A DNA stretch of 64,000 nucleotides from Candidatus Hydrogenedentota bacterium (GTDB lineage: Bacteria; Hydrogenedentota; Hydrogenedentia; Hydrogenedentales; JAEUWI01): assembly GCA_016791475.1 (NCBI GenBank), contig JAEUWI010000030.1:1-64000 (forward strand), read 5' to 3'. Below are positions 7,257-55,802 of this stretch, piece after piece. Made by a program: the position numbers and the translations under genes. Position 1 is the first letter of the stretch, and each line of letters begins with the position of its first letter. The notes under the pieces were generated by a model. That model worked only from the letters and a program-made list of their open reading frames with translations. It was not told the origin of the DNA and searched no databases.

Positions 7257-10200
7257 ATGCACGTGCACACTTATTTTCGACGGTTTTCATTTTTTCTTAC
7301 TTTGGCCGTGGTGGCATCCATCGCCCTCACCAGTTGCCCGCCCCCGACCCCCGAGGAGGAAAGTCTCAAGGTTCTCCTCGCCACAGGAATGCCCGTTGCC
7401 GGAAAATCACTTCCCAAGGGCCTTGTCCCTGTGGATGACGCGGCCATCCTGAGTCTCGAAGCCCGGATTCAGGCCATTCGCATCCTTTCGCTGGATGGTA
7501 CGGAAACCGAGTCCACCAGCGTGCTCTCCAGCGCGAAGACGGTGGATCTCCTCGACTTGACCGACGTGGCGGCGTTGCTCTCCGATACGACCGTGCCCGC
7601 CGGGTCCTATAGCGGTGTGGAACTCGTGATTTCGGAAGCGAGCATGGTGCTGGTGAACAATCCGCTGGAGACCATCGCGCTGGCGCTTGCCGATGGCGGA
7701 ACCTACACCCTGGATTTTGATTTTGAGATTGCGCCGGAGAGTGCGGGCCTGCTCTTCCTCGAGCTGGGCGGCCTGAATGTGCTTGAGGGCGAGGGGGGCA
7801 ACTTTACACTTTCACCGGCATTGTCCGCCGGCCTGGCAACGGCTGTGTTAAACGCACAAATCGCCGGTTCAATTGAAAGTATCGACAACGCGGCGGAGAC
7901 TTTTGTGCTCGCGGCGGGCGCGGCCCGATATACGGTCGATTATACAGAGGCCGATATCTTCGTGCCGGGTGACTATGGAACGCCGAGTGGAACCCCCGCC
8001 GTATTGTCGGCGGGCACCGACGTGGCGGTCGTGGGAACAGCGGGAGCAAATAGTTCCATCGCCCCTCACACGATTGTGGTGGTTGATCTACCCGGGACGC
8101 CGGAAGACGATGAAGGTGATCTGATTACGGTATGCCTCTTAGCCGACGACCCAACGCCCACCGCCCAGACCATCCAAGTCAGCCGCAACCGGCTGGACCA
8201 GATTATCGCACTCGGTGGCTTTGAAGGCCCTTGCGACGGGGGCGATCCCTTTACCCTGACTTATGCGGCGGGTCCCGGCGGTACGGTTGAAGGGCTCAGT
8301 CCCCAGAGTGTGGCGCCCGGCGCCGATGGTTCCGCCGTGACGGCCGTGCCGCTGGATGGTTTCGCCTTCGTCAACTGGAGCGATGGCAGTACCCTCAATC
8401 CCCGCCGCGACCGGGCTGTGGGCGCGGATATTACGGTGACCGCCAACTTTGCCGAGCTCTTCGCGCTGAGCTATACGGCGGGCGCGGGCGGCACGATTGC
8501 GGGCAACGCCAGCCAGCTCGTGCCCGAAGGGGGCAGCGGCTCGCCGGTGACGGCGGTTCGCGACGACAGCTTTGTGTTTGACGGTTGGAGCGACGGGCGC
8601 ACGGACAATCCGCGCACCGATATCAACATAGCGGCGGACCTGGCGGTTACGGCCAACTTCCTGGAAGTTTTCCAGCTCACCTACACCGCCGGTACCGGTG
8701 GAACCGTGGAAGGCGTGACCCAGCAGTCGGTTATTGACGGTAATGATGGAACGGCGGTTACGGCGATCCCCGGCGAGGGCTTCATCTTCATCGGCTGGAG
8801 CGACGGCGTCGAGGAGAATACCCGCACCGACCTCAATGTGGATGGCGATGTGACGGTAACGGCAAATTTCCTGGCCCAGTACACCCTGACCTACGTGGCC
8901 GGAGCCAACGGAACGATCACGGGCGCGACCTCCCAGATTGTGAACGACGGTGAGGACGGCACGGCGGTGACGGCGGTGCCGAACGCAACCTTCGGCTTCG
9001 CGGGCTGGAGCGACGGTCGGGCGGACAATCCCAGGACGGATGTCGATGTGGACGGGGACGTCACCGTGACCGCGAACTTCGCCACGGCGATCACGCTGAG
9101 TTATGCGGCGGATACCCACGGCACCTTGACGGGCGCCACGGAGCAAGTCATCGGCAGCGGCGGTACGGGTACGGCGGTTACCGCAGTGCCCAATGAAGGC
9201 TATGGTTTCGACCAGTGGAGCGACGGCCGAACGGACAATCCCCGCGTGGATACCGGCGCGACGAGCGATCTGAGTGTGACGGCGGAGTTTGTGCCCGCCT
9301 TCACCCTGACGTATCTGGCAAGCGAGGGCGGCACCCTTACCGGCGCGACGACCCAGATAGTGAATACGGGCGGGTCGGGTACGGCCGTGACGGCGGCGCC
9401 GAACGCCAGTTTTGTTTTTGATAAGTGGAGCGACAATACGAAGCAGAATCCCCGGACCGACGTCAATGTGGTCAGTGATGTGACGGTGACCGCCCAGTTT
9501 GTGGAGTTGTTCACGTTGACCTATACGGCGGGCAGCAACGGGAGCCTGACCGGCCCCGCGAGCCAGACCATCCGCGACGGTGCGGACGGGCGCACGGTTA
9601 CGGCGGTGCCCGCCAACGGCTTCGGATTTGACGGCTGGAGCGACGGCGTCCTGGACAATCCCCGGACCGATCTGGATGTCAGTGGCGACATTTCCGTGAC
9701 GGCCAACTTCTCCGCGACCTTGACGGTGACCTATGAAGCGGGCGAGAACGGGGATATTTCCGGTGTGTCCATTCAAGATGTCGAGGTGGGCGCGAGCACC
9801 ACGGCGGTTACGGCGGTGCCGAATGAGGGCTACCTGTTCTCGCAATGGAGCGACGGCAGCACCGACAATCCGCGCACCGACACCGACGTTATCGCCACGA
9901 AGTCCTTCACCGCGTCCTTCTTCGAGGATGTGGTCATGCTCCCCGTGCCCGCGGGCACCTTCACGATGGGTCCCCGGGAAGACGGGGATGACGCGCTCTT
10001 CGATCTGCAGGACGAACTGCCGCGCCGGGAGGTGACGCTCGACGCGTATGAGATAGGCAAGTTTGAGGTGAACAATGCCCAGTTCGCCGAGTTCATGAAC
10101 TTTATGCACCATCCCTCGCGCGATCTGCTCAAGCGGCCCAACGGCTCATCGTGGCAAGGTTTTCCGGAGAACGTGTGGTTTTTCGACAGCGCCCTGCCCC

Positions 10201-10964
10201 GGGTGGTTTTTGCCTTCGCCCTTACCGAAGATGGCATCGACTACGACCAGAACACCAATTCCTTCGTGACCAAAGTGCTGGAGGGTGTCCCGGCCGGTAC
10301 CTTCTACGACAAGGCGACCCATCCGGTGACGGAACCGACCTGGTACGGGGCGGTACTGTTTGCCAACTGGCTTTCCGAGCGTTCCGGCCTCGAACCGGTC
10401 TACGACACGGACACGTGGACCGGCGACTTCACGAAAAACGGCTACCGCCTCCCGTCGGAGGCGGAGTGGGAGCGCGCGGCCGCGTGGGACGGGGAGAAGC
10501 ACTGGATCTACCCGATTACGAGCGACGAACTGACCACGCGCGATCGGGTGAATTTCCATGTGGACAGCTTCCGGCCGAATCCCGACTACGGCAGCACAAG
10601 CTTCATCAATCCGCTGGGCATTATCCAGGACGCGAAAGAGTCCTATACTTCGCCGGTGGGCTGGTTCAACGGCATCAATATCAGCCCCAACGGCAACATC
10701 CAGACGGTGGACAGCCCCAGCCCCGTCGGGGCCTACGATATGGCCGGCAATGTGGTTGAGTGGTGCGACGACTGGTATTCCGCGACCTACTACAGTGAAA
10801 ACGTCACGGACAATCCCCGGGGCCCGGAAGTGGGCACCGACAAAGTAGCCCGCGGCGGCGCCTGGGCCCGACTGGTGAAAAAAGAGAACCAGCGCTCGGC
10901 GCGTCGCTTCCGATACGACCCGAATCACTCCGACGGCATCAACGGCTTCCGCCTGGCGCGCTAA
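7257..10964 (+). CDS. Lipoprotein: DUF4382 + eight InlB-like repeats + FGE-sulfatase domain
   Basis: This 1235-residue surface lipoprotein begins with a signal peptide and lipobox (ALTSC, Cys about residue 28). Residues about 60-205 resemble DUF4382, a beta domain of bacterial lipoproteins. From residue 332 to about 891 run eight 70-residue repeats of the Listeria-Bacteroides/divergent InlB-B type, each with TYTAG..GG near the start, AVTAVP in the middle, GWSDG..DNPRTD and VTVTANF at the end. The C-terminal ~340 residues form an FGE-sulfatase (SUMF1/EgtB-like) fold: LPVPAGTFTMG, YRLPSEAEWERAA, YDMAGNVVEWCDDWY, ARGGAW and the terminal NGFRLAR. The catalytic cysteine pair of true FGE enzymes is not evident, so a binding or structural role is likelier than sulfatase activation. 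AGGGA precedes the ATG. Confidence 0.88.
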   Translation: MHVHTYFRRFSFFLTLAVVASIALTSCPPPTPEEESLKVLLATGMPVAGKSLPKGLVPVDDAAILSLEARIQAIRILSLDGTETESTSVLSSAKTVDLLDLTDVAALLSDTTVPAGSYSGVELVISEASMVLVNNPLETIALALADGGTYTLDFDFEIAPESAGLLFLELGGLNVLEGEGGNFTLSPALSAGLATAVLNAQIAGSIESIDNAAETFVLAAGAARYTVDYTEADIFVPGDYGTPSGTPAVLSAGTDVAVVGTAGANSSIAPHTIVVVDLPGTPEDDEGDLITVCLLADDPTPTAQTIQVSRNRLDQIIALGGFEGPCDGGDPFTLTYAAGPGGTVEGLSPQSVAPGADGSAVTAVPLDGFAFVNWSDGSTLNPRRDRAVGADITVTANFAELFALSYTAGAGGTIAGNASQLVPEGGSGSPVTAVRDDSFVFDGWSDGRTDNPRTDINIAADLAVTANFLEVFQLTYTAGTGGTVEGVTQQSVIDGNDGTAVTAIPGEGFIFIGWSDGVEENTRTDLNVDGDVTVTANFLAQYTLTYVAGANGTITGATSQIVNDGEDGTAVTAVPNATFGFAGWSDGRADNPRTDVDVDGDVTVTANFATAITLSYAADTHGTLTGATEQVIGSGGTGTAVTAVPNEGYGFDQWSDGRTDNPRVDTGATSDLSVTAEFVPAFTLTYLASEGGTLTGATTQIVNTGGSGTAVTAAPNASFVFDKWSDNTKQNPRTDVNVVSDVTVTAQFVELFTLTYTAGSNGSLTGPASQTIRDGADGRTVTAVPANGFGFDGWSDGVLDNPRTDLDVSGDISVTANFSATLTVTYEAGENGDISGVSIQDVEVGASTTAVTAVPNEGYLFSQWSDGSTDNPRTDTDVIATKSFTASFFEDVVMLPVPAGTFTMGPREDGDDALFDLQDELPRREVTLDAYEIGKFEVNNAQFAEFMNFMHHPSRDLLKRPNGSSWQGFPENVWFFDSALPRVVFAFALTEDGIDYDQNTNSFVTKVLEGVPAGTFYDKATHPVTEPTWYGAVLFANWLSERSGLEPVYDTDTWTGDFTKNGYRLPSEAEWERAAAWDGEKHWIYPITSDELTTRDRVNFHVDSFRPNPDYGSTSFINPLGIIQDAKESYTSPVGWFNGINISPNGNIQTVDSPSPVGAYDMAGNVVEWCDDWYSATYYSENVTDNPRGPEVGTDKVARGGAWARLVKKENQRSARRFRYDPNHSDGINGFRLAR
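8250..9929 (+). repeat. Eight 210-bp coding repeats
   Basis: Eight in-frame units of 70 codons encode the InlB-like repeats of the lipoprotein. Most share the codon-level core tggagcgacgg and a caatccccg or caatccgcg segment at the same position, so recent duplication or gene conversion between units is likely. The opposite strand stays open through much of this stretch (8139-10112) only because of composition. Confidence 0.85.
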
Positions 10965-10995
10965 CGCCCGTGCGGCTTTCCCGAATCTTCGCAAC

Positions 10996-11024
10996 GCCCC
11001 GCCCGGCAGTCGCCGCGGCGGGGC
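10996..11024 (+). terminator. GC-rich hairpin after the lipoprotein gene
   Basis: GCCCCGCC pairs with GGCGGGGC across a 13-base loop, about 30 bases past the stop codon. There is no T run after it, so intrinsic termination is only possible. Confidence 0.4.
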
Positions 11025-11451
11025 CCTTAACAGCCGTGGCGCGGGGCGGTTTCGTACTCGGGTTGACTCACGCGGCGATCCGCGCCGCTGGTGTTTTGAA
11101 ATCGTATACCGAAACCTTTACAATCCCGCCCACTGTGCAGATGCGGTGATACCTGTCGGAATCTGGAGTTTTCGGGATCCTCTTGCGGTCCACGCCCAGT
11201 CGGGGTTTGAGTCTGATTGCGTGCCGGAATTCCGGGGAACAGCGTTGGTTATGGGAGACCTTTCCCCGAGGCGGCCGTTATCCGCGTCCATGGTATTACA
11301 CAGGGTCCCCCGGGGCCGTTGAATTCGATAGCGTCCATTACGCGACCCTTGTAGTCGGGTCAACCTTTATGGGAGATCCGGTACAGCCCCCGACGGATCT
11401 GAATATGCGAACAACTACGAGCCACACGGAAAAAGCGGAAAACCTGGGACC
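11025..11451. other. Intergenic region upstream of the MBOAT gene
   Basis: I see no supported gene. Short open frames on both strands lack ribosome sites and conserved motifs. The promoter of the acyltransferase pair is expected here but no clear -35/-10 pair stands out. Confidence 0.4.
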
Positions 11452-12888
11452 ATGCTGTTTAACTCGATAGATTTTCTGCTGTTTCTTCCGCTCGTCGTCG
11501 GAGCGTATTATCTCATTCCCCACCGTTTCCGGTGGATTCTTCTCCTCGTTGCCAGCTATTACTTCTACATGTGCTGGAAGGCGGAGTTTATTATTCTCAT
11601 TGTGCTTTCCACGCTGGTGGATTATGTTGCGGCCCTGGGCATGGAGAAAACCGCCAGCAGTCGGCTGCGCAAGATGTGGCTGGGATTCAGCCTCACCTCC
11701 AATCTGGGTATGCTCTTTACCTTCAAGTACCTGAATTTCTTCAGCGCGAGCTTTCAGGAGGTATTCAATACCTTCAACATCGCCTATCATTTCCCCACCT
11801 ACAATCTGCTCTTGCCGGCGGGTATATCCTTCTATACCTTTCAAACCCTGAGCTACACCATCGACGTCTACAGAGGGCACAAGAAAGCGGAGCACCACTT
11901 CGGAATCTTTGCGCTGTATGTCTGCTTCTTTCCCCAGTTGGTGGCCGGCCCCATTGAGCGCGCGGTCAGCTTTCTACCCCAGTTTCACGAGAAGCACGCG
12001 CTCGACATCCAGCGGATCGTGGACGGATTGCGCATGGTCCTTTGGGGGCTTTTCAAGAAGATCGTCATTGCGGACCGCCTGTCCATCTATGTGAATACGG
12101 TCTACAACAATCCCCACCATTTCGATTCCGCGCCCACGTTTATCATGGCGACCTATTTCTTCGCCTTCCAGATTTACTGCGACTTCTCGGCCTATTCTGA
12201 CATCGCCATTGGTTCCGCGCGCATGCTCGGTTTTGACCTGATGGAAAACTTCCGAAAGCCCTACGAGTCCAAGTCCATCTCCGAATTCTGGTCGCGCTGG
12301 CACATATCCCTTTCCACCTGGTTTCGCGACTACCTGTACATTCCCCTCGGCGGGAACCGGGTCGGAAAAATCTACTACTACCGGAATCTGTTCGTTATCT
12401 TCCTGGTGAGCGGACTCTGGCACGGGGCCAACTGGACCTTTGTGATCTGGGGCGCGCTTCACGGTTTCTTCCTCGTCTTCGCACTGATGAGCAAGTCCTT
12501 GCGCGAGTCTATTGCCGAGAAGACGGGACTGAAAAAGCACAAGGGCCTGCACGGCGCGCTCCAGGTATTCATTTGCTTCCACCTCGTCTGCCTGGGCTGG
12601 ATCTTCTTTCGCGCGAACAATGTCTCCGACGCCTTCCATGTGGTCGGCGCCATTCTGAGCCCCAATTGGTTCTCCCTGGATATTTCCAACGCCAGCCATT
12701 TCTTCTATGGCATCTGGGGCATTGCTTCGCTTCTGGCCGTGGAACGGCTCCAGGGCAATCGGACCCTGGTCGAAAGTTTCAACCGGTGGCCCACCTGGTT
12801 CCGCTGGAGTATTTACTCGTACTGCATCCTACTCATTTTGACGATCGGCGTGATTGATGGCGGACAATTCATCTACTTCCAATTCTAG
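11452..12888 (+). CDS. MBOAT family O-acyltransferase (AlgI-like)
   Basis: This 478-residue polytopic membrane protein matches the AlgI/PatA/DltB branch of membrane-bound O-acyltransferases. The N-terminus MLFNSIDFLLFLPLVV, the segment LPAGISFYTFQTLSY and FPQLVAGPIER are family hallmarks. The invariant active-site histidine lies near residue 324 in SGLWHGANWTFVIWG, and a second conserved histidine follows in ALHGF. Such proteins move acyl groups across the membrane for O-acetylation of exopolysaccharide or other cell-surface polymers. The next gene overlaps its end by 35 bases and encodes an SGNH-like protein, the usual partner, so the two probably work as one acylation unit. Substrate unknown. 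Confidence 0.93.
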   Translation: MLFNSIDFLLFLPLVVGAYYLIPHRFRWILLLVASYYFYMCWKAEFIILIVLSTLVDYVAALGMEKTASSRLRKMWLGFSLTSNLGMLFTFKYLNFFSASFQEVFNTFNIAYHFPTYNLLLPAGISFYTFQTLSYTIDVYRGHKKAEHHFGIFALYVCFFPQLVAGPIERAVSFLPQFHEKHALDIQRIVDGLRMVLWGLFKKIVIADRLSIYVNTVYNNPHHFDSAPTFIMATYFFAFQIYCDFSAYSDIAIGSARMLGFDLMENFRKPYESKSISEFWSRWHISLSTWFRDYLYIPLGGNRVGKIYYYRNLFVIFLVSGLWHGANWTFVIWGALHGFFLVFALMSKSLRESIAEKTGLKKHKGLHGALQVFICFHLVCLGWIFFRANNVSDAFHVVGAILSPNWFSLDISNASHFFYGIWGIASLLAVERLQGNRTLVESFNRWPTWFRWSIYSYCILLILTIGVIDGGQFIYFQF

Positions 12889-46705: not shown

Positions 46706-47557
46706 TTAGCCCTGAATCTTCCGCACCCGCTCGGTGACGTCGCTCAGGAAATTGCTGAGGTAGCCTTGCACGAGCGCGAGGGGGTCGAGGTCGCGGTCTT
46801 CGATGAGGGGGGTGAGGTCCATGGCGAAGGTGATACCTGTCGATTGGTCCACGCCGTGGGACTGGTGGTAGGTGGCGTGGGCGCGACGTCGGCCCATGCT
46901 GGCCAGGTCATAGCGCTTGCCACCCGCAATCTGGGAGTCGAAGACGCCGACCAGGGCCATTTGGAGGTTTTCGCGCGTGGAGACGTCCATGGCAATTTTA
47001 TCGGTGTCCACCATCCAGTCGAGATCACGCCAGACCTCGCATCCATAGACTTTCTTCGGCAGGGCTTCCTGGGAAACGCGGCGCAGGGCGGCGATGGTCT
47101 TCAGGGTGACCCCGATGTGGGTGTCGTGCTTGTCCGCCAGGTTGTGGGTATAGATGATGTCCGGCTTCGTGGCTTCGATGATGGCGGCGAGGTCGTTGAT
47201 GGGGCCCTGGTCCGCCGCGTCTTTTACGCGGCCGCTGGGGAAATCGAGGAGGAACTGGGCGGCGAATTCACCCACAAAGGCGGCTTTTTTCTGTTCCTTG
47301 TTGCGCACCTGAATCATATCTTCGTCGCTGTAATTGCCGTAAATGCCGCTGCGGGGCGTGCCGCCGCCATTGGTGACGACCACGCCGGTGTACCACTGGT
47401 CGGGCTGCTGGTAGCAGGTTACGATGCCTTCGCTGGCCATGATTTCCAGGTCGTCCTGATGGGCGCCGATGGCAAGGTGGGTGGTGCGGGCCAGGGCTTC
47501 GGATTCTTCGACGCCATCGGGGATATAGAGTTCGGCGGTGTCCAGGGTGAGCTTCAT
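46706..47557 (-). CDS. PIG-L (LmbE-like) deacetylase family protein
   Basis: This 283-residue zinc-dependent deacetylase removes acetyl groups from N-acetylglucosamine-type or related substrates. The metal and catalytic motif is LAIGAHQDDLEIMA (usual form AHPDDE; here Gln replaces Pro and Leu follows the second Asp before Glu). YTHNLADKHDTHIGVT carries the other zinc His residues. YGCEVWRDLDWM and a C-terminal helical tail complete it. Substrate unknown; a neighbouring ROK-type sugar kinase suggests amino-sugar metabolism, but this is inference. Confidence 0.88.
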   Translation of the reverse strand: MKLTLDTAELYIPDGVEESEALARTTHLAIGAHQDDLEIMASEGIVTCYQQPDQWYTGVVVTNGGGTPRSGIYGNYSDEDMIQVRNKEQKKAAFVGEFAAQFLLDFPSGRVKDAADQGPINDLAAIIEATKPDIIYTHNLADKHDTHIGVTLKTIAALRRVSQEALPKKVYGCEVWRDLDWMVDTDKIAMDVSTRENLQMALVGVFDSQIAGGKRYDLASMGRRRAHATYHQSHGVDQSTGITFAMDLTPLIEDRDLDPLALVQGYLSNFLSDVTERVRKIQG

Positions 47558-47876
47558 GGGAGGAAAATTAACCTTTCAGTTCGATTAATGGTGTAAATGC
47601 ACCGGAATTTTAACCACGAATGCACACGAATTTTCACGAATAAGAAACCGTGGCCCTCGTGATAATGCATAGAGCACTTTGCGTGTTCCACAACCGGAAA
47701 AAAGAAGTTCCGGGCTACGGAAATACACGGAACGTTACGGAAAGCAGAAGGGCTGGAGTCAGTAGTCAGACAGAGCCAAACGGTCGATTGATTACATTCA
47801 ACAGCGTAATAGCGGAGCACTTATTGGTGTGTATTCGTGTCCATTCGTGGTTCAATTTCTTAATAAATGGCTCTTG
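47558..47876. other. Intergenic region with diverged short repeats
   Basis: Lower GC than the flanking genes, with CACGAAT-type repeats (CCACGAATGCACACGAATT at 47612-47630 and TTCACGAATAAG) and related words near 47825-47845 (GTATTCGTGTCCATTCGTGG) in inverted orientation. No gene supported. Confidence 0.5.
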
Positions 47877-49268
47877 TTATAGTGCCGGCAGACTGGCGGC
47901 GGCGATGGACTGGCCCACGCGGCGGCTCTTTTCATCGGGCAACTGGATATTGATGTGGGCCAGCTCGGGGAACTCGGCGGCCAGGACGGCTTTTGCGCCG
48001 TCGAGGAGCAAGTCGCCGCCTTTGCCGGAAGTGCAGCGCCCGAGGATGAGCACATGCTTCAGGTCGTAGAAACGGGCGTAGTGGGCGATGCCGTAGCCGA
48101 GATAGATGCCCATGGACTCCCAGATTTTCGTAGCGCCCTCATGACCGGCTTCAAGCTTTTCCTGTACGAATTTCAGCTTCTCAGCGTCGGTCACGCCTTC
48201 GGGCAACTCGATGCCCGCGGCCGGGGCGAGGCGGAATACGCACTGCTGTGAGAAATAGCGGGCGCCCACGCCAATGTCGCCCGACCACTCGTCATCGGAT
48301 GCGCCGGGATTATAGTCGACCGGGGCAAAGGCCAACTCGTTGAGCCAGCTCGTGATGTTGCCGTCCATGGTGACATAGCCCCCGGCCTCGCTGGAGCCCA
48401 GAGCGATGCCCAGGACGCCATTGTCTTCCAGGGACATGGAACCGGCGAGGGCGGTGACTTCACCGTCGTTTACGATTTCCAGGGGCACGCCGAGTTCTTC
48501 GCCGATGCGGACGAACATGTTGCGCACTTCGTCAAAACGGTCTTCCGGAATGCCTCGGAATAGGGAAGCGATCATCGCGCGATTGTTTATGAATACGCCG
48601 GCCGAGCTGCCGCCGATGGCGTCCACGCGGGGCATCTTGCTGGCGGCGGTTTTCAGCGCGGCCATGACCTCATTGTAGTGGTAGGTCGGGTCGGTCTGCT
48701 TGCGCGGTTCCCAGACCACTTCCTCGGAGAAGATGGCTTCGCCGTCCACGACGGCCGAGACTTTGCGGTCCGATGCGCCGAGATCGAAGCCGATGCGGCA
48801 ACCGTCGAGGTGACGGCCCAGGGGCTGGGTGGATTCGTTTTCCGCGGGCACTTCCTCGGGCTTGCAGCCCCGAATCTGGAAGGTCTGTTCATAGACGCTC
48901 TTGCCCATGAAGCCGAAGTCGAATGCGCGGGTGCCGCCGGGGCGATATACGCCTGCGAGATAGGCCGCCACATAGCCGGGGCCGCCCACATGGACGCGGA
49001 ACGCGCCCTTCTGCCACAGAAGGAATTTCAGGATTCGTTCAATGTAGAAGCAACTCGCGTCGGCCAGATCGTGACCATCGGGAAACACTCTTGTTTCGAA
49101 GCGCGCGATGGCGCCGCCATTTCGTTCGAGTCCCAGAATGAGGGGCACGCCCCGTCCGGAGTCCGCCACGGCCTTGTCAAAGGTCTGGTTCGCCAGGACG
49201 GCGGGGCGAAAGTCGGGTTCAAGTGGGGGAACAAAGGTTGGGGGCGTGAGCATCCACGAGTAGTTCAT
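47877..49268 (-). CDS. ROK-family sugar kinase-like protein
   Basis: A 463-residue protein with an actin-like ATPase fold. The phosphate-1 motif is CRIGFDLGASDRKVSAVVDG near residue 158. IVNDGEVTALAGSM carries the expected catalytic-loop Asp, and LGIALGSSEAGGYVTMDGN is the phosphate-2 glycine motif. HVLILGRCTSGKGG near the C-terminus fits the adenosine motif. The first ~155 residues are an unusual extension not seen in short ROK kinases. The substrate is probably a hexose or amino sugar. The zinc-binding C-x-C motif of classical ROK proteins is not evident. Confidence 0.78.
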   Translation of the reverse strand: MNYSWMLTPPTFVPPLEPDFRPAVLANQTFDKAVADSGRGVPLILGLERNGGAIARFETRVFPDGHDLADASCFYIERILKFLLWQKGAFRVHVGGPGYVAAYLAGVYRPGGTRAFDFGFMGKSVYEQTFQIRGCKPEEVPAENESTQPLGRHLDGCRIGFDLGASDRKVSAVVDGEAIFSEEVVWEPRKQTDPTYHYNEVMAALKTAASKMPRVDAIGGSSAGVFINNRAMIASLFRGIPEDRFDEVRNMFVRIGEELGVPLEIVNDGEVTALAGSMSLEDNGVLGIALGSSEAGGYVTMDGNITSWLNELAFAPVDYNPGASDDEWSGDIGVGARYFSQQCVFRLAPAAGIELPEGVTDAEKLKFVQEKLEAGHEGATKIWESMGIYLGYGIAHYARFYDLKHVLILGRCTSGKGGDLLLDGAKAVLAAEFPELAHINIQLPDEKSRRVGQSIAAASLPAL

Positions 49269-49368: not shown

Positions 49369-49470
49369 ATGGGTCTTATGGGTCTTATGGGTCTTATGGG
49401 TCCTATGGGTCATATGGGTCTTATGAGTCAGTATGACTCCATTTCCAGAGACCCATACGACCCATACGAC
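49369..49470. repeat. (GGGTCTTAT)n array with inverted tail
   Basis: About seven units of GGGTCTTATG and close variants (GGGTCCTATG, GGGTCATATG) are followed at 49451-49470 by two inverted units (ACCCATACG). It sits between the divergent ROK and AAA+ genes. The layout copies that at the left edge of the window. Confidence 0.9.
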
Positions 49471-49565
49471 GCACAAGAGCGATTTCATCCATCATCCTTC
49501 AGCCTTCAGGCCATCTGTGATAGAATGCGCAACATGAAGTACTACTTAACACGAGAGACCTCTAT

Positions 49566-51275
49566 ATGAAGGGACGCAGTTTCGACACCTTCGAGTTGAC
49601 CCCGGGGAACCGGGAGGCTTTTGATGTCTGCCGGCGGGTGGCCATGCTGGAGGAAATGGGGCCATCCCTGGTGCTCTTACTGGGGCCGGAGGGCAGCGGC
49701 AAGAGCCATCTGCTCTGGGCGGTGGCCAAGCAGGTGCGTTTGAGCGCGATACCGGTGGGCCTGGCGTTGGTGACACCGGGGGACTTCCCGGATAAGGTGA
49801 AGGCGCTGGTGGAGGACCCGCGACCGCTGCAGGGGCGCCGCGCCATGCTGCTGGTGGACAATCTGGAGGGTTTCGATGCCGAAGCCCGGCGACTCGAAGC
49901 CGTGATCGAAGCCTTCTTGAACCACCAGCATCCGGTACTGGTGGCGAGCAATGTTCAACCGAACCGGCTGCAGAAGCTCAGCGGTCCGCTTCGCGCGCGG
50001 TTGGCGCGGTCGCGTTCGGTTATCCTGGAAGCGCGCACGGCGGGTGCGGCGCCGTGGCAGGCTGCCGAGCAGGCGATAGCGCTGGAAGAGGCGAATCAGG
50101 CGCTGCAGTGGGAAAAGAACTCGCTCCAGACCCGTTTCGACACCCTGCAACAGGAGCGGGACGGCCTGCTTCAGCGCATAGGATTCCTGCTGCAGGAAAA
50201 GGAGATGCTCCAGCAGTACAACGAATCGCTCCAGCGTGAGCGCGCGGCGTTTCAGGAGCAGTGCCAGGCCCTGTTGCCGGAGCGGGACTGGCTGAAGCAG
50301 AAGACGGAGTCGCTGGAGCGTGAGCGGTCGGCCTATCAGGAGGCGATTACGGCGGCCAACAAGGCGGCGGCGGAGAAGGCGCTGGAGTTTAAGGCGCTGC
50401 AATCCCGGCTGGAGGCGTCCATTGGCGACGCGGACTATGCGCTGGCGAATCAGGTGCGGATCCAGGCGGCCCTGAGTGTTGCCAAGGCGGATCTTGAAGG
50501 TCAGGAGGCGCTGCGCGTCACATTACAGGAGCGGGAGAAGGCCCTTGCCAAGGCGGAGATGTCCGTGGGGCAGGCCCTGACCCGGATCGAGCAGATGCGC
50601 CAGGCCTATGCGCAGTGGCGCGAAGAAATCATGTCGGACATCGCGGCAATGGCGGGTGAGCTGGCTGCGGAGCGAAAGGCGCCTCCGGCCCATGAGCCTC
50701 CGTTGTTGCGTGCGCTGGCGGAGGCCGGCGCCGATCACGAGCAGGTGCGCGCCGCGCTTACGGCGACCCGGGAACGGCTCAAGGCCATCGAGTTCGAGTG
50801 GGAGAAGACCCGGCGTGTGCTGGCGATTCAGACCGCCGAGATGGATGCCCTGCGCTATGCGGCGGCGAGTCAGGTGGCGTCGGCCAATATCCAGGCGGGC
50901 GAAATGGAGCACCGGATTGACACGCTGGAAACGGCCATTTCCCAGGTGGACGCGGCGGCGGTGGTGGCCTCCGATGCCTTGCCGGAAACGGGCGCGGGCA
51001 TTGCCACCCTGCGGGCGGCCCTGGGCCATCTTCAGGAAGAGTTGCGCGCCCTACGCGAAGCGCGTGCGGCGCACGATGGTGAGCGCCAGCGCGCCCACGA
51101 TGAGATGTCCCTCTTCGACTCGGAGTACTTTGAAGCCCTGCCCTCGGATTTTCAGGGGCACCGCAGCCCCATGCTTCCCGGCCTGGATGCCGAATTGATG
51201 ACCGCTTTTGAAGGGGCGAGAACGCCCAGGTCCGCCGCATCCGCGCACGATGCGGTTCCGGAAGATGTCGCATGA
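49566..51275 (+). CDS. DnaA-like AAA+ domain fused to a long coiled coil
   Basis: This 569-residue protein starts like DnaA/Hda AAA+ domains: FDTFELTPGNREAFDVCRRV, then Walker A LLGPEGSGKSHLLWAVA (about residues 39-55), Walker B AMLLVDNLEGFD (near 95-106) and sensor-1 VLVASNVQPNRLQKL. LRARLARSRSVILEA fits the arginine-finger region. From about residue 170 to 510 the chain is coiled coil (NQALQWEKNSLQTRFDTLQQ and on). The DnaA DNA-binding domain IV is missing. Its stop overlaps the next gene's start by 4 bases (ATGA). I infer a regulator or scaffold related to replication initiation, without direct proof. Confidence 0.8.
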   Translation: MKGRSFDTFELTPGNREAFDVCRRVAMLEEMGPSLVLLLGPEGSGKSHLLWAVAKQVRLSAIPVGLALVTPGDFPDKVKALVEDPRPLQGRRAMLLVDNLEGFDAEARRLEAVIEAFLNHQHPVLVASNVQPNRLQKLSGPLRARLARSRSVILEARTAGAAPWQAAEQAIALEEANQALQWEKNSLQTRFDTLQQERDGLLQRIGFLLQEKEMLQQYNESLQRERAAFQEQCQALLPERDWLKQKTESLERERSAYQEAITAANKAAAEKALEFKALQSRLEASIGDADYALANQVRIQAALSVAKADLEGQEALRVTLQEREKALAKAEMSVGQALTRIEQMRQAYAQWREEIMSDIAAMAGELAAERKAPPAHEPPLLRALAEAGADHEQVRAALTATRERLKAIEFEWEKTRRVLAIQTAEMDALRYAAASQVASANIQAGEMEHRIDTLETAISQVDAAAVVASDALPETGAGIATLRAALGHLQEELRALREARAAHDGERQRAHDEMSLFDSEYFEALPSDFQGHRSPMLPGLDAELMTAFEGARTPRSAASAHDAVPEDVA

Positions 51276-51856
51276 GTGGTTCCAAAAGCGGCGAATTCAC
51301 CATGCGTATACTCGATTTGTTCCAGATAATTCATCCGCTGGATCGCATTCCCCGCGCGGGCTATGTGCTTCGCGGCGTACCGGAGCCGGAGTCCGTGGCG
51401 GCCCACAGTCACTTCGTCGCCCTGCTCGCCCTGCTCTTCGTGGAGCAGTTTCCGGGAGTCTACAACCGGGACCGTCTGCTGGCCATGGCGCTGGTTCACG
51501 ATCTGGCGGAGTCACGGCTCATGGATATCCCCATGCCCTATGCGGACGCCTATTTAAAAGAGGCCAAGCAGAAGGCGGAGCAGGCCATCACGGACGATCT
51601 TCTCGGTGGCCTGCCCGGCGATCTTGCGGCGCTTCATGCGGAATTCGACGCCGCCATCACGCCCGAAGCGCGGCTGCTGCGCGGCCTGGACAAGGCCCAG
51701 ATGATGATCAAGGTCGGGTGCTACGAGCGCGAGCACCGGGGCTGCCTGGACGAGTTCTGGGCAAACCCGAAGAACTTTGCGGACTTCGGGATCGCGGCGG
51801 TATCGGAATTGTTCGACGCGATATGCGCGCGCGCGGGGAAAGTGCGGCCGAGGTAG
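51272..51856 (+). CDS. HD-domain hydrolase (YfbR-like)
   Basis: This 194-residue protein is an HD-domain phosphohydrolase of the YfbR/HD_3 type, enzymes that often remove phosphate from deoxynucleoside monophosphates. Metal ligands are in ESVAAHSHFVALLALLF, in LVHDLAESRLMDIPMPY (HD pair plus the ES motif) and in the Asp of RGLDKAQMMIKV. The first codons overlap the AAA+/coiled-coil gene by four bases, so the two are translationally coupled. A link of nucleotide pools to replication control is a plausible but unproven reading. Confidence 0.88.
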   Translation: MSGSKSGEFTMRILDLFQIIHPLDRIPRAGYVLRGVPEPESVAAHSHFVALLALLFVEQFPGVYNRDRLLAMALVHDLAESRLMDIPMPYADAYLKEAKQKAEQAITDDLLGGLPGDLAALHAEFDAAITPEARLLRGLDKAQMMIKVGCYEREHRGCLDEFWANPKNFADFGIAAVSELFDAICARAGKVRPR

Positions 51857-55073: not shown

Positions 55074-55148
55074 CGTCCAATCGAGACAATGACACTGGAT
55101 ACCGCACATCAGAGGCATGAAACCGGATGCTACATGAGGCATGAGACC

Positions 55149-55802
55149 ATGGCGGAGCATGAAATACTGACTTTGGAAGAAGTAGCCGATTACCTGCGGG
55201 TTTCGGAACGTACCGTTTATGAGTGGGCGAACAAGGGAGAAATCCCCTGCGGAAAACTTGGCACCACGTGGCGCTTCAAACGGTCTGAGGTGGAAAAGTG
55301 GGTCGACAGCAAGCTGACCCGCCCCGCAAAGGCACTTCGCACGGATTCTGTTGCCCTGCGGGACGTGCTGAGTCCGGATCGGGTTCGGTTGTTGAACTGC
55401 ACGCGCAAGGACGAGGCCCTGAACATCCTGGCGGACGCGCTGGTGACCGCACCGCAGGTCAAAGATGCCAACGAGTTGCGCCGGGAGGTTTTTGAGCGGG
55501 AAGCGCTCATGAGCACCGGCATAGGGTTTGGGATTGGCGTGCCGCATGTGCGTCTGCCCTCGGTCAGCGACTTGGTTATCGCGGTCGGCGTGAACCGCAA
55601 GGAGCTGGCGGACTATGTTTCGCTGGACGAGCGACCGGTGCAGATAATTTTTATGGTGGCGGCGCGGGACAACCAGCACGCCCATTATCTGAAGACGCTG
55701 GCGGCGATCAGCTCGCTGATGAAATTGCCGGGAGTGCGCGAGTCGCTGCTTGCGGCCCCGGATGCCGCCACTGTGTACGAACTGCTTACCAACCGCACTT
55801 GA
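55149..55802 (+). CDS. Excisionase-type HTH fused to PTS EIIA (type 2, PtsN-like)
   Basis: This 217-residue protein joins a MerR/excisionase-like HTH (LTLEEVADYLRVSERTVYEW, residues 5-55) to a fructose/nitrogen-type EIIA domain (about 75-215). The phosphorylatable His is in GIGFGIGVPHVRLPS. Such fusions occur in several phyla and probably link phosphorylation state to transcription or carbon/nitrogen signalling. The start may be ATG 55149 or an upstream ATG at 55089; homologues begin close to LTLEEVA. A DUF2007 gene follows by 16 bases. Confidence 0.88.
   Translation: MAEHEILTLEEVADYLRVSERTVYEWANKGEIPCGKLGTTWRFKRSEVEKWVDSKLTRPAKALRTDSVALRDVLSPDRVRLLNCTRKDEALNILADALVTAPQVKDANELRREVFEREALMSTGIGFGIGVPHVRLPSVSDLVIAVGVNRKELADYVSLDERPVQIIFMVAARDNQHAHYLKTLAAISSLMKLPGVRESLLAAPDAATVYELLTNRT

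Follow-up and report, generated by a model that had tools for sequence, protein, structure and literature searches.

A DnaA-type AAA+ core on a coiled coil and its HD phosphohydrolase gene neighbour in the Hydrogenedentota

Two groups of described proteins come closest to the gene pair considered here, the initiator DnaA and Hda on one side and HD-domain phosphohydrolases such as Escherichia coli YfbR on the other. Hda depends on an arginine finger as well as on a clamp-binding motif (PMC5295017, accessible part), YfbR owes its specificity for deoxy substrates to W19 according to the accessible portion of a study that also sets out the roles of its other residues (PMC8177086), and the E. coli gene cluster of YfdR, when oversupplied, inhibits initiation (PMC4776307, accessible part). 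A DnaA-type AAA+ protein with a long coiled coil, encoded together with an HD enzyme, was not found described in the titles and abstract openings of the open-access literature, which agrees with an earlier note, made from the sequence alone, that had held the arrangement to be new. The pair is located on contig C30 of a Candidatus Hydrogenedentota genome (7.7 Mb, 529 contigs). The window, i.e., the whole stretch of DNA analysed, has a length of 64,000 nucleotides, and the coordinates of the features are collected in Table 1.

Table 1. Coordinates of the gene pair, of the parts of the AAA+-coiled-coil protein and of a second DnaA of the phylum; positions refer to the window unless a locus is given
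Feature	Position	Strand	Size or residues	Basis
AAA+-coiled-coil ORF	49566-51275	+	569 aa	
DnaA-type AAA+ core	49566..50030	+	residues ~1-155	PF00308, AF2 fold, fold match
Coiled coil	50100..51116	+	residues ~179-517	AF2 helices, 3.5-residue periodicity
C-terminal tail	51117..51275	+	residues 518-569	pLDDT mostly 43-55
HD_3-type phosphohydrolase	51272..51856	+	194 aa	HD_3 92.3 bits
Second DnaA (MshEN fusion)	L208:1219-3726, G000 contig C13	-		

The 569-aa protein, which together with its relatives makes up the AAA+-coil family, opens directly with the AAA+ core and carries nothing N-terminal to it. The Pfam domain Bac_DnaA (PF00308) matched residues 5–147 of the window protein with 35.7 bits (cut-off 23) and was present in 35/35 family members, and a sequence-profile search of the PDB with the core gave DnaA as the best hit (58–71 bits). 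In the AlphaFold2 model (mean pLDDT 75.9, whole-chain pTM only 0.35, 16 sequences), an AAA+ alpha/beta core of residues 1–155 is followed by a low-confidence linker (~157–178), and the solved folds nearest to this core were DnaA domain III (Z 17.5–18.3; for DnaA 8btg: VIA, Z 18.3 and 2.8 Å over 152 residues), Hda (16.2–16.6), and DnaC (14.7). The Pfam, NCBIfam, PDB profile, and fold matches all bear out the earlier assignment of the core to the DnaA clade, with which it shares the N-terminal motif, Walker A, Walker B, and fold of domain III. The ‘DnaA-related protein’ 2KJQ (149 aa) is likewise a short DnaA-related P-loop protein and was matched weakly (24.7 bits), but it is too short for a coiled coil and the match spans profile positions 27–120 only.

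For a residue census, 55 AAA+-coil proteins (a set of 41 plus 14 more, the divergent L201 being retained) were aligned to 30 sequences of DnaA together with DnaA, Hda, and DnaC of E. coli. The family proteins entered this alignment with residues 1–170 only, which makes sensor II a gap by construction, hence this column was not used; second or divergent copies (L227, L228, L229, L233, and L238), the contig-cut L236 and L245, and G065 were left out. The N-terminal F..F....N motif and the Walker A GKTH/S are present in the family as in DnaA, and both the Walker A Lys (GPEGSGKSH in the window protein) and the Walker B Asp (LLVDN) were found in 55/55 proteins. The second Walker B acid is retained in 22/55 (D in 8, E in 14; Q, N, G or H in the rest), the sensor I Asp is absent from the seven commonest letters at its position, which cover 53/55, an Arg occupies the arginine-finger position (box VII, E. 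coli R285) in 4/55, window included, and the segment ahead of Walker B is shorter than that of DnaA. What had been noted before, that the Walker A, Walker B, and sensor regions of DnaA/Hda proteins are kept, stands for the Lys and the Asp, while the sensor I Asp and the second acid are mostly lost and sensor II is missing. As the Lys and the Asp are invariant and the second Walker B acid is mostly gone, an ATP-binding switch appears likelier than a motor, and we infer from the losses that nucleotide is probably bound without the usual inter-subunit hydrolysis; the head may be less inert in the genus of the window, since it has an Arg at the finger position.

The lid was searched for in whole chains with a profile made from 31 DnaA sequences, which recovers 30/30 DnaA (its own training rows) and also matches E. 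coli Hda, a protein outside the training set (E 5e-6). None of the 55 family proteins, two of which are cut by contig ends (L244 and L232), had a lid match at the expected place (near residues 155–240), and the best one scored 9.1 bits and lies within the L045 coil, away from this place. The core of the window protein has no detectable lid/sensor II, no domain IV match was obtained with Pfam anywhere in its chain, and AlphaFold2 models the rest of the chain as helix. Model and periodicity thus uphold the claim that ~340 residues of coiled coil stand in place of domain IV, and the lid profile widens it: with no lid in 55/55, both lid and domain IV are replaced by the coil. Compared with DnaA, the family is without domains I, II, and IV and the lid/sensor II, mostly without the arginine finger and the second Walker B acid, and has a coiled coil added.

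The modelled helices of the window protein cover residues 179–364, 380–470, and 476–517 (~340 residues), with a proline-rich break at ~373–379. The hydrophobic periodicity (heptad, 3.5) of residues 179–517 was higher than in all 300 shuffles, and across the family it was reached by 0/300 shuffles in 47/53 proteins and by 1–3/300 in the other 6. The chain past residue 165 measures between 130 and 1411 residues (53 family proteins) and the C-terminal tails vary from lineage to lineage, the one in the window being probably flexible, judging by its model confidence. An SMC/Rad50 identity was considered and rejected (TIGR02168, 30.2 vs. 567 bits), as the best stretch falls in the coil only (312–514) and the head is DnaA-type; the names SMC, JetC, BrxF, and Mads obtained from domain and defence profile matches were likewise put down to coil or P-loop similarity.

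The neighbouring gene had been called a YfbR-like HD hydrolase overlapping the AAA+ gene by 4 bases. Its HD nature and the overlap of the AAA+ stop with the HD start (ATGA at 51272–51275) are as claimed, and YfbR is not its nearest relative. In Pfam, the 194-aa protein scored 92.3 bits with HD_3 (PF13023) and 43.2 bits with the YfbR-like family (PF12917). Residues H45, H76, D77, E80, D85, and D140 are invariant in 29/29 HD relatives and align with YfbR H33, H68, D69, E72, D77, and D137, so that the metal ligands (H33, H68, D69, D137), D77, and E72, which we take to be the catalytic residue, are identical in both, as is R18; the overall identity to E. coli YfbR is 20–26% (Z 8.2–8.4), and W19 is not conserved, its column being non-Trp in the 6 relatives aligned. 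The best matches were the HD_3 proteins HDDC2 (4DMB), YGL101W/YGK1 (5YOX), and Pyrococcus 1XX7/2CQZ (54–124 bits, Z 9.8–10.5). Among the solved HD relatives, 2CQZ, 1XX7, and HDDC2 were the nearest and YfbR the last of 11, with a fold Z of 10.5 for 1XX7 vs. 8.4 for YfbR (model pLDDT 79.5, 7 sequences), and alignment A2, compared as a profile with YfbR alone, gave a weak match (probability 41.8). By sequence comparison, the HD protein is nearer to HDDC2, YGK1, and the archaeal HD_3 proteins than to YfbR, its active site is intact, and it is likely a (deoxy)nucleoside monophosphatase. It differs from these HD_3 proteins in being encoded with a DnaA-type AAA+ protein.

In 40/51 judgeable genomes, the AAA+ gene immediately precedes the HD gene on the same strand, so the pair seen in the window is conserved across genomes, and in 29 of these 40 the distance between the AAA+ stop and the start of the HD domain is ≤ 50 nt. 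G007 was counted as adjacent through a divergent second copy with a score of 61 bits, and contig ends made eight genomes unjudgeable (G046, G009, G066, G023, G062, G040, G057, and G065), of which G040 is probably adjacent too because its HD contig opens with coiled-coil-like sequence. The 11 non-adjacent genomes, ten from family f5 and one from f4, either have the HD gene elsewhere (G042, G033, G010, G029, and G052) or lack it (G019, G064, G036, G032, G067, and G048). The other neighbours are reshuffled, none recurring in more than 6/39 loci (the top one being a PP2C phosphatase), after shadow ORFs contained in the neighbour clusters had been set aside by eye. By our own count the HD gene is present in 58/68 genomes (59 before the 44-bit match of G036 was dropped; contig-end fragments in G006, G012, and G057), and both genes co-occur in 50 genomes, with the AAA+ gene alone in 9, the HD gene alone in 8, and neither in 1 (Fisher p = 1, a count blurred by incomplete MAGs). 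G019, rated 99% complete, encodes the AAA+ protein but lacks the HD gene, and the four f7 genomes have the HD gene (in one case a contig-end fragment) and no AAA+ gene. The presence of the family in 59/68 genomes and the same gene order in 40 speak against chance, and the pair is real, old, and conserved but non-obligate, either gene occurring alone. Upstream of the pair (window 46706–49268, minus strand) are a PIG-L gene and a gene with weak ROK similarity, which also occur close to it at 4 and 5 of the 39 loci, respectively. The relocated HD gene of G052 comes after a gene for a MshEN-HDOD protein (L194:4671-6110, minus strand), and L196 has a similar-looking neighbour.

Within the Hydrogenedentota, profile A1 of the core recovered the family in 59/68 genomes, all of one order, a split that we read from the A1 match list; complete domains scored 114–250 bits and canonical DnaA ≤ 82, the outliers being one fragment (86 bits) and the divergent G007 copy (65 bits). 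With A1, it was not found in G011, G012, G015, G020, G025, G028, G030, G041, and G061, which include all four f7 genomes. A 56-row tree placed 23 family rows on one side of a branch with 100/99 support and left DnaA1, DnaA2, other DnaA, Hda, and DnaC outside, the last two on long branches. The labels of GTDB families change 10 times along the AAA+ tree (54 rows) vs. 29.4 when shuffled and 8 times along the HD tree (29 rows) vs. 17.5, from which mainly vertical descent was concluded. Extra AAA+-coil copies away from the HD gene accompany the paired one in some genomes (L067 on G007:C513, L227, L228, and L229), one of them 1576 aa long.

A scan of named genomes gave no confirmed match with the window AAA+ domain alone. 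With alignment A1, for which one peptide pattern was used, at least 80 loci were kept and 16 of them belong to the AAA+-coil family, 15 being titled Hydrogenedent-/Hydrogenedens and one Rhodothermaeota among the matches listed; the other 64 are 21–30% matches, DnaA-type in all ten read out. The named relatives listed (Candidatus Hydrogenedentota, Hydrogenedentes, and Hydrogenedens) have cores 39–69% identical to that of the window. The title of the Rhodothermaeota record (L090, 36% core identity) is probably outdated, because its match is identical in place and score to that of G032, a member of the Hydrogenedentota. A search at E ≤ 1e-24, run without positive control, of 246 genomes from the phylum to which G069 belongs (its locus bears the title Neorhodopirellula pilleata) returned 0 matches, and among the matches listed from phage and plasmid collections there were only generic DnaA/DnaC/RFC-type ones with < 31% identity. 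In these limited searches, i.e., among the matches listed and in the sampled collections, the family was not seen beyond the Hydrogenedentota.

The explanation that we tentatively favour is a coiled-coil scaffold gated by nucleotide and produced alongside a (deoxy)nucleotidase of the HD type, with a stripped DnaA AAA+ core mounted on a rod and passed on vertically in the Hydrogenedentota. The head would act as an ATP-binding switch that hydrolyses slowly or not at all and would not form DnaA-like filaments, the coil would assemble as a dimer or larger rod, and the rod with its lineage-specific tail could act as a scaffold holding or placing the HD enzyme, likely a 5′-(deoxy)nucleotidase, in a nucleotide-dependent manner. 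A scaffold for the HD nucleotidase, or a protein simply co-made with it, is the most likely description of the AAA+ protein. The ATPase core of DnaA has here been reused outside the initiator, trimmed to a presumed nucleotide-binding head on a long rod and retained beside a nucleotidase gene through most of a phylum. If the pair has no part in replication, the protein would represent a new family of scaffolds whose head is of known descent. It is somewhat doubtful that the two are operon mates only, with the HD protein as a housekeeping (deoxy)nucleoside-monophosphate phosphatase, the AAA+-coil protein serving separately in cell structure or organisation, and a transcript shared by history or for co-expression. 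Each gene is found without the other, their presence does not co-vary, and the HD protein is far better conserved than the AAA+ core (58–85% vs. 35–70% identity to those of the window), with the part after residue 165 varying widely; on the other hand, adjacency was kept in 40/51 judgeable genomes while other neighbours were shuffled, and the ends of the two genes often touch or overlap.

Replication control by the pair is possible and, if real, would constitute a new link between nucleotide metabolism and initiation. One form of it would act on DnaA without following Hda: the intact ATP pocket would take up the arginine finger of DnaA, and the protein, itself devoid of lid and finger, would cap the filament, with the HD enzyme adding a dNMP/dNTP signal; we regard this as unlikely. 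DnaA domain III is the nearest fold, and a pocket retained with the finger lost could fit a cap, but the stretch preceding Walker B has fewer residues than that of DnaA, and the genes were seen near a dnaA in only two genomes. In G058, a canonical dnaA precedes the pair by 2.9 kb on the same strand (L068:3668-5332 and 8211-12458), and in G047 the pair is ~11 kb from a DnaA-type gene, a linkage (2/59) that we estimate to be near chance. YfdR, a structural homologue of YfbR, does bind DnaA and in this offers one precedent, in favour of the reading, for an HD protein at DnaA; its binding is to domains I–II and not III–IV (PMC4776307, accessible part), and it therefore sets no precedent for a contact between an HD enzyme and the AAA+ core. 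Equally unlikely is a phylum-wide sensor, in which the DnaA-derived ATP switch on its rod would bring the dNMP hydrolase to the machinery of initiation or replication and couple initiation to the local turnover of deoxynucleotides in a manner different from that of Hda. The Hda-like function suggested earlier, a stimulation of DnaA-ATP hydrolysis at the sliding clamp, is very improbable. The family resembles Hda as a DnaA AAA+ without DNA-binding domain (Z 16.2–16.6), the highest-ranking match in NCBIfam is to TIGR03420 (Hda), no separate Hda was seen in the window genome, where only three PF00308 matches exceed the cut-off, and the window protein has the finger Arg. Nevertheless, this match reaches 46.8 bits against a cut-off of 194.8, the finger Arg is missing in 51/55 proteins, the lid is missing in all, and E. 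coli Hda falls outside the well-supported family clade on a long branch. A beta-clamp-binding motif was rejected for the family, as the window protein matches 0/3 clamp-type patterns and the 3, 8, and 2 matching proteins among 55 relatives are within the range of shuffles (means 4.5, 4.8, and 0.6; maxima 10, 11, and 4). With TIGR03420 below its cut-off, no clamp pattern, and these finger and lid results, the protein was not filed as Hda. The lowest probability is given to a defence pair, in which phage attack would lead the ATPase to activate an HD enzyme that destroys nucleotides. Its architecture of an ATPase with an HD enzyme is similar to that of nucleotide-depletion defences, but PADLOC matched the AAA+ protein weakly (best mad8, 27.1 bits) and the HD protein not at all, inheritance across the phylum is mainly vertical, and the phage and plasmid matches listed are of generic types.

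A better candidate for a regulator of the initiator than the AAA+-coil protein could be the second DnaA of the phylum, which consists of an MshEN domain, a long linker, and a DnaA AAA+ core and ends ~200 aa past Walker A, hence without domain IV. The nine second DnaA sequences sampled form one clade, and MshEN was found in eight of them, the ninth (L221) beginning at the edge of its locus. As MshEN is presumably a c-di-GMP-binding family, a link of c-di-GMP to replication is possible. In the open-access literature, as far as titles and abstract openings go, MshEN and DnaA appear together only in work on another subject. Besides the fusion of Table 1, further ones are found at L209, L212, L216, L217, L220, L223, and L225. 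In the window itself, short repeats lie in the gap immediately 5′ of the AAA+ gene (49369–49569), and positions 55089–55802 encode a fusion of an HTH_17 DNA-binding domain with PTS EIIA_2.
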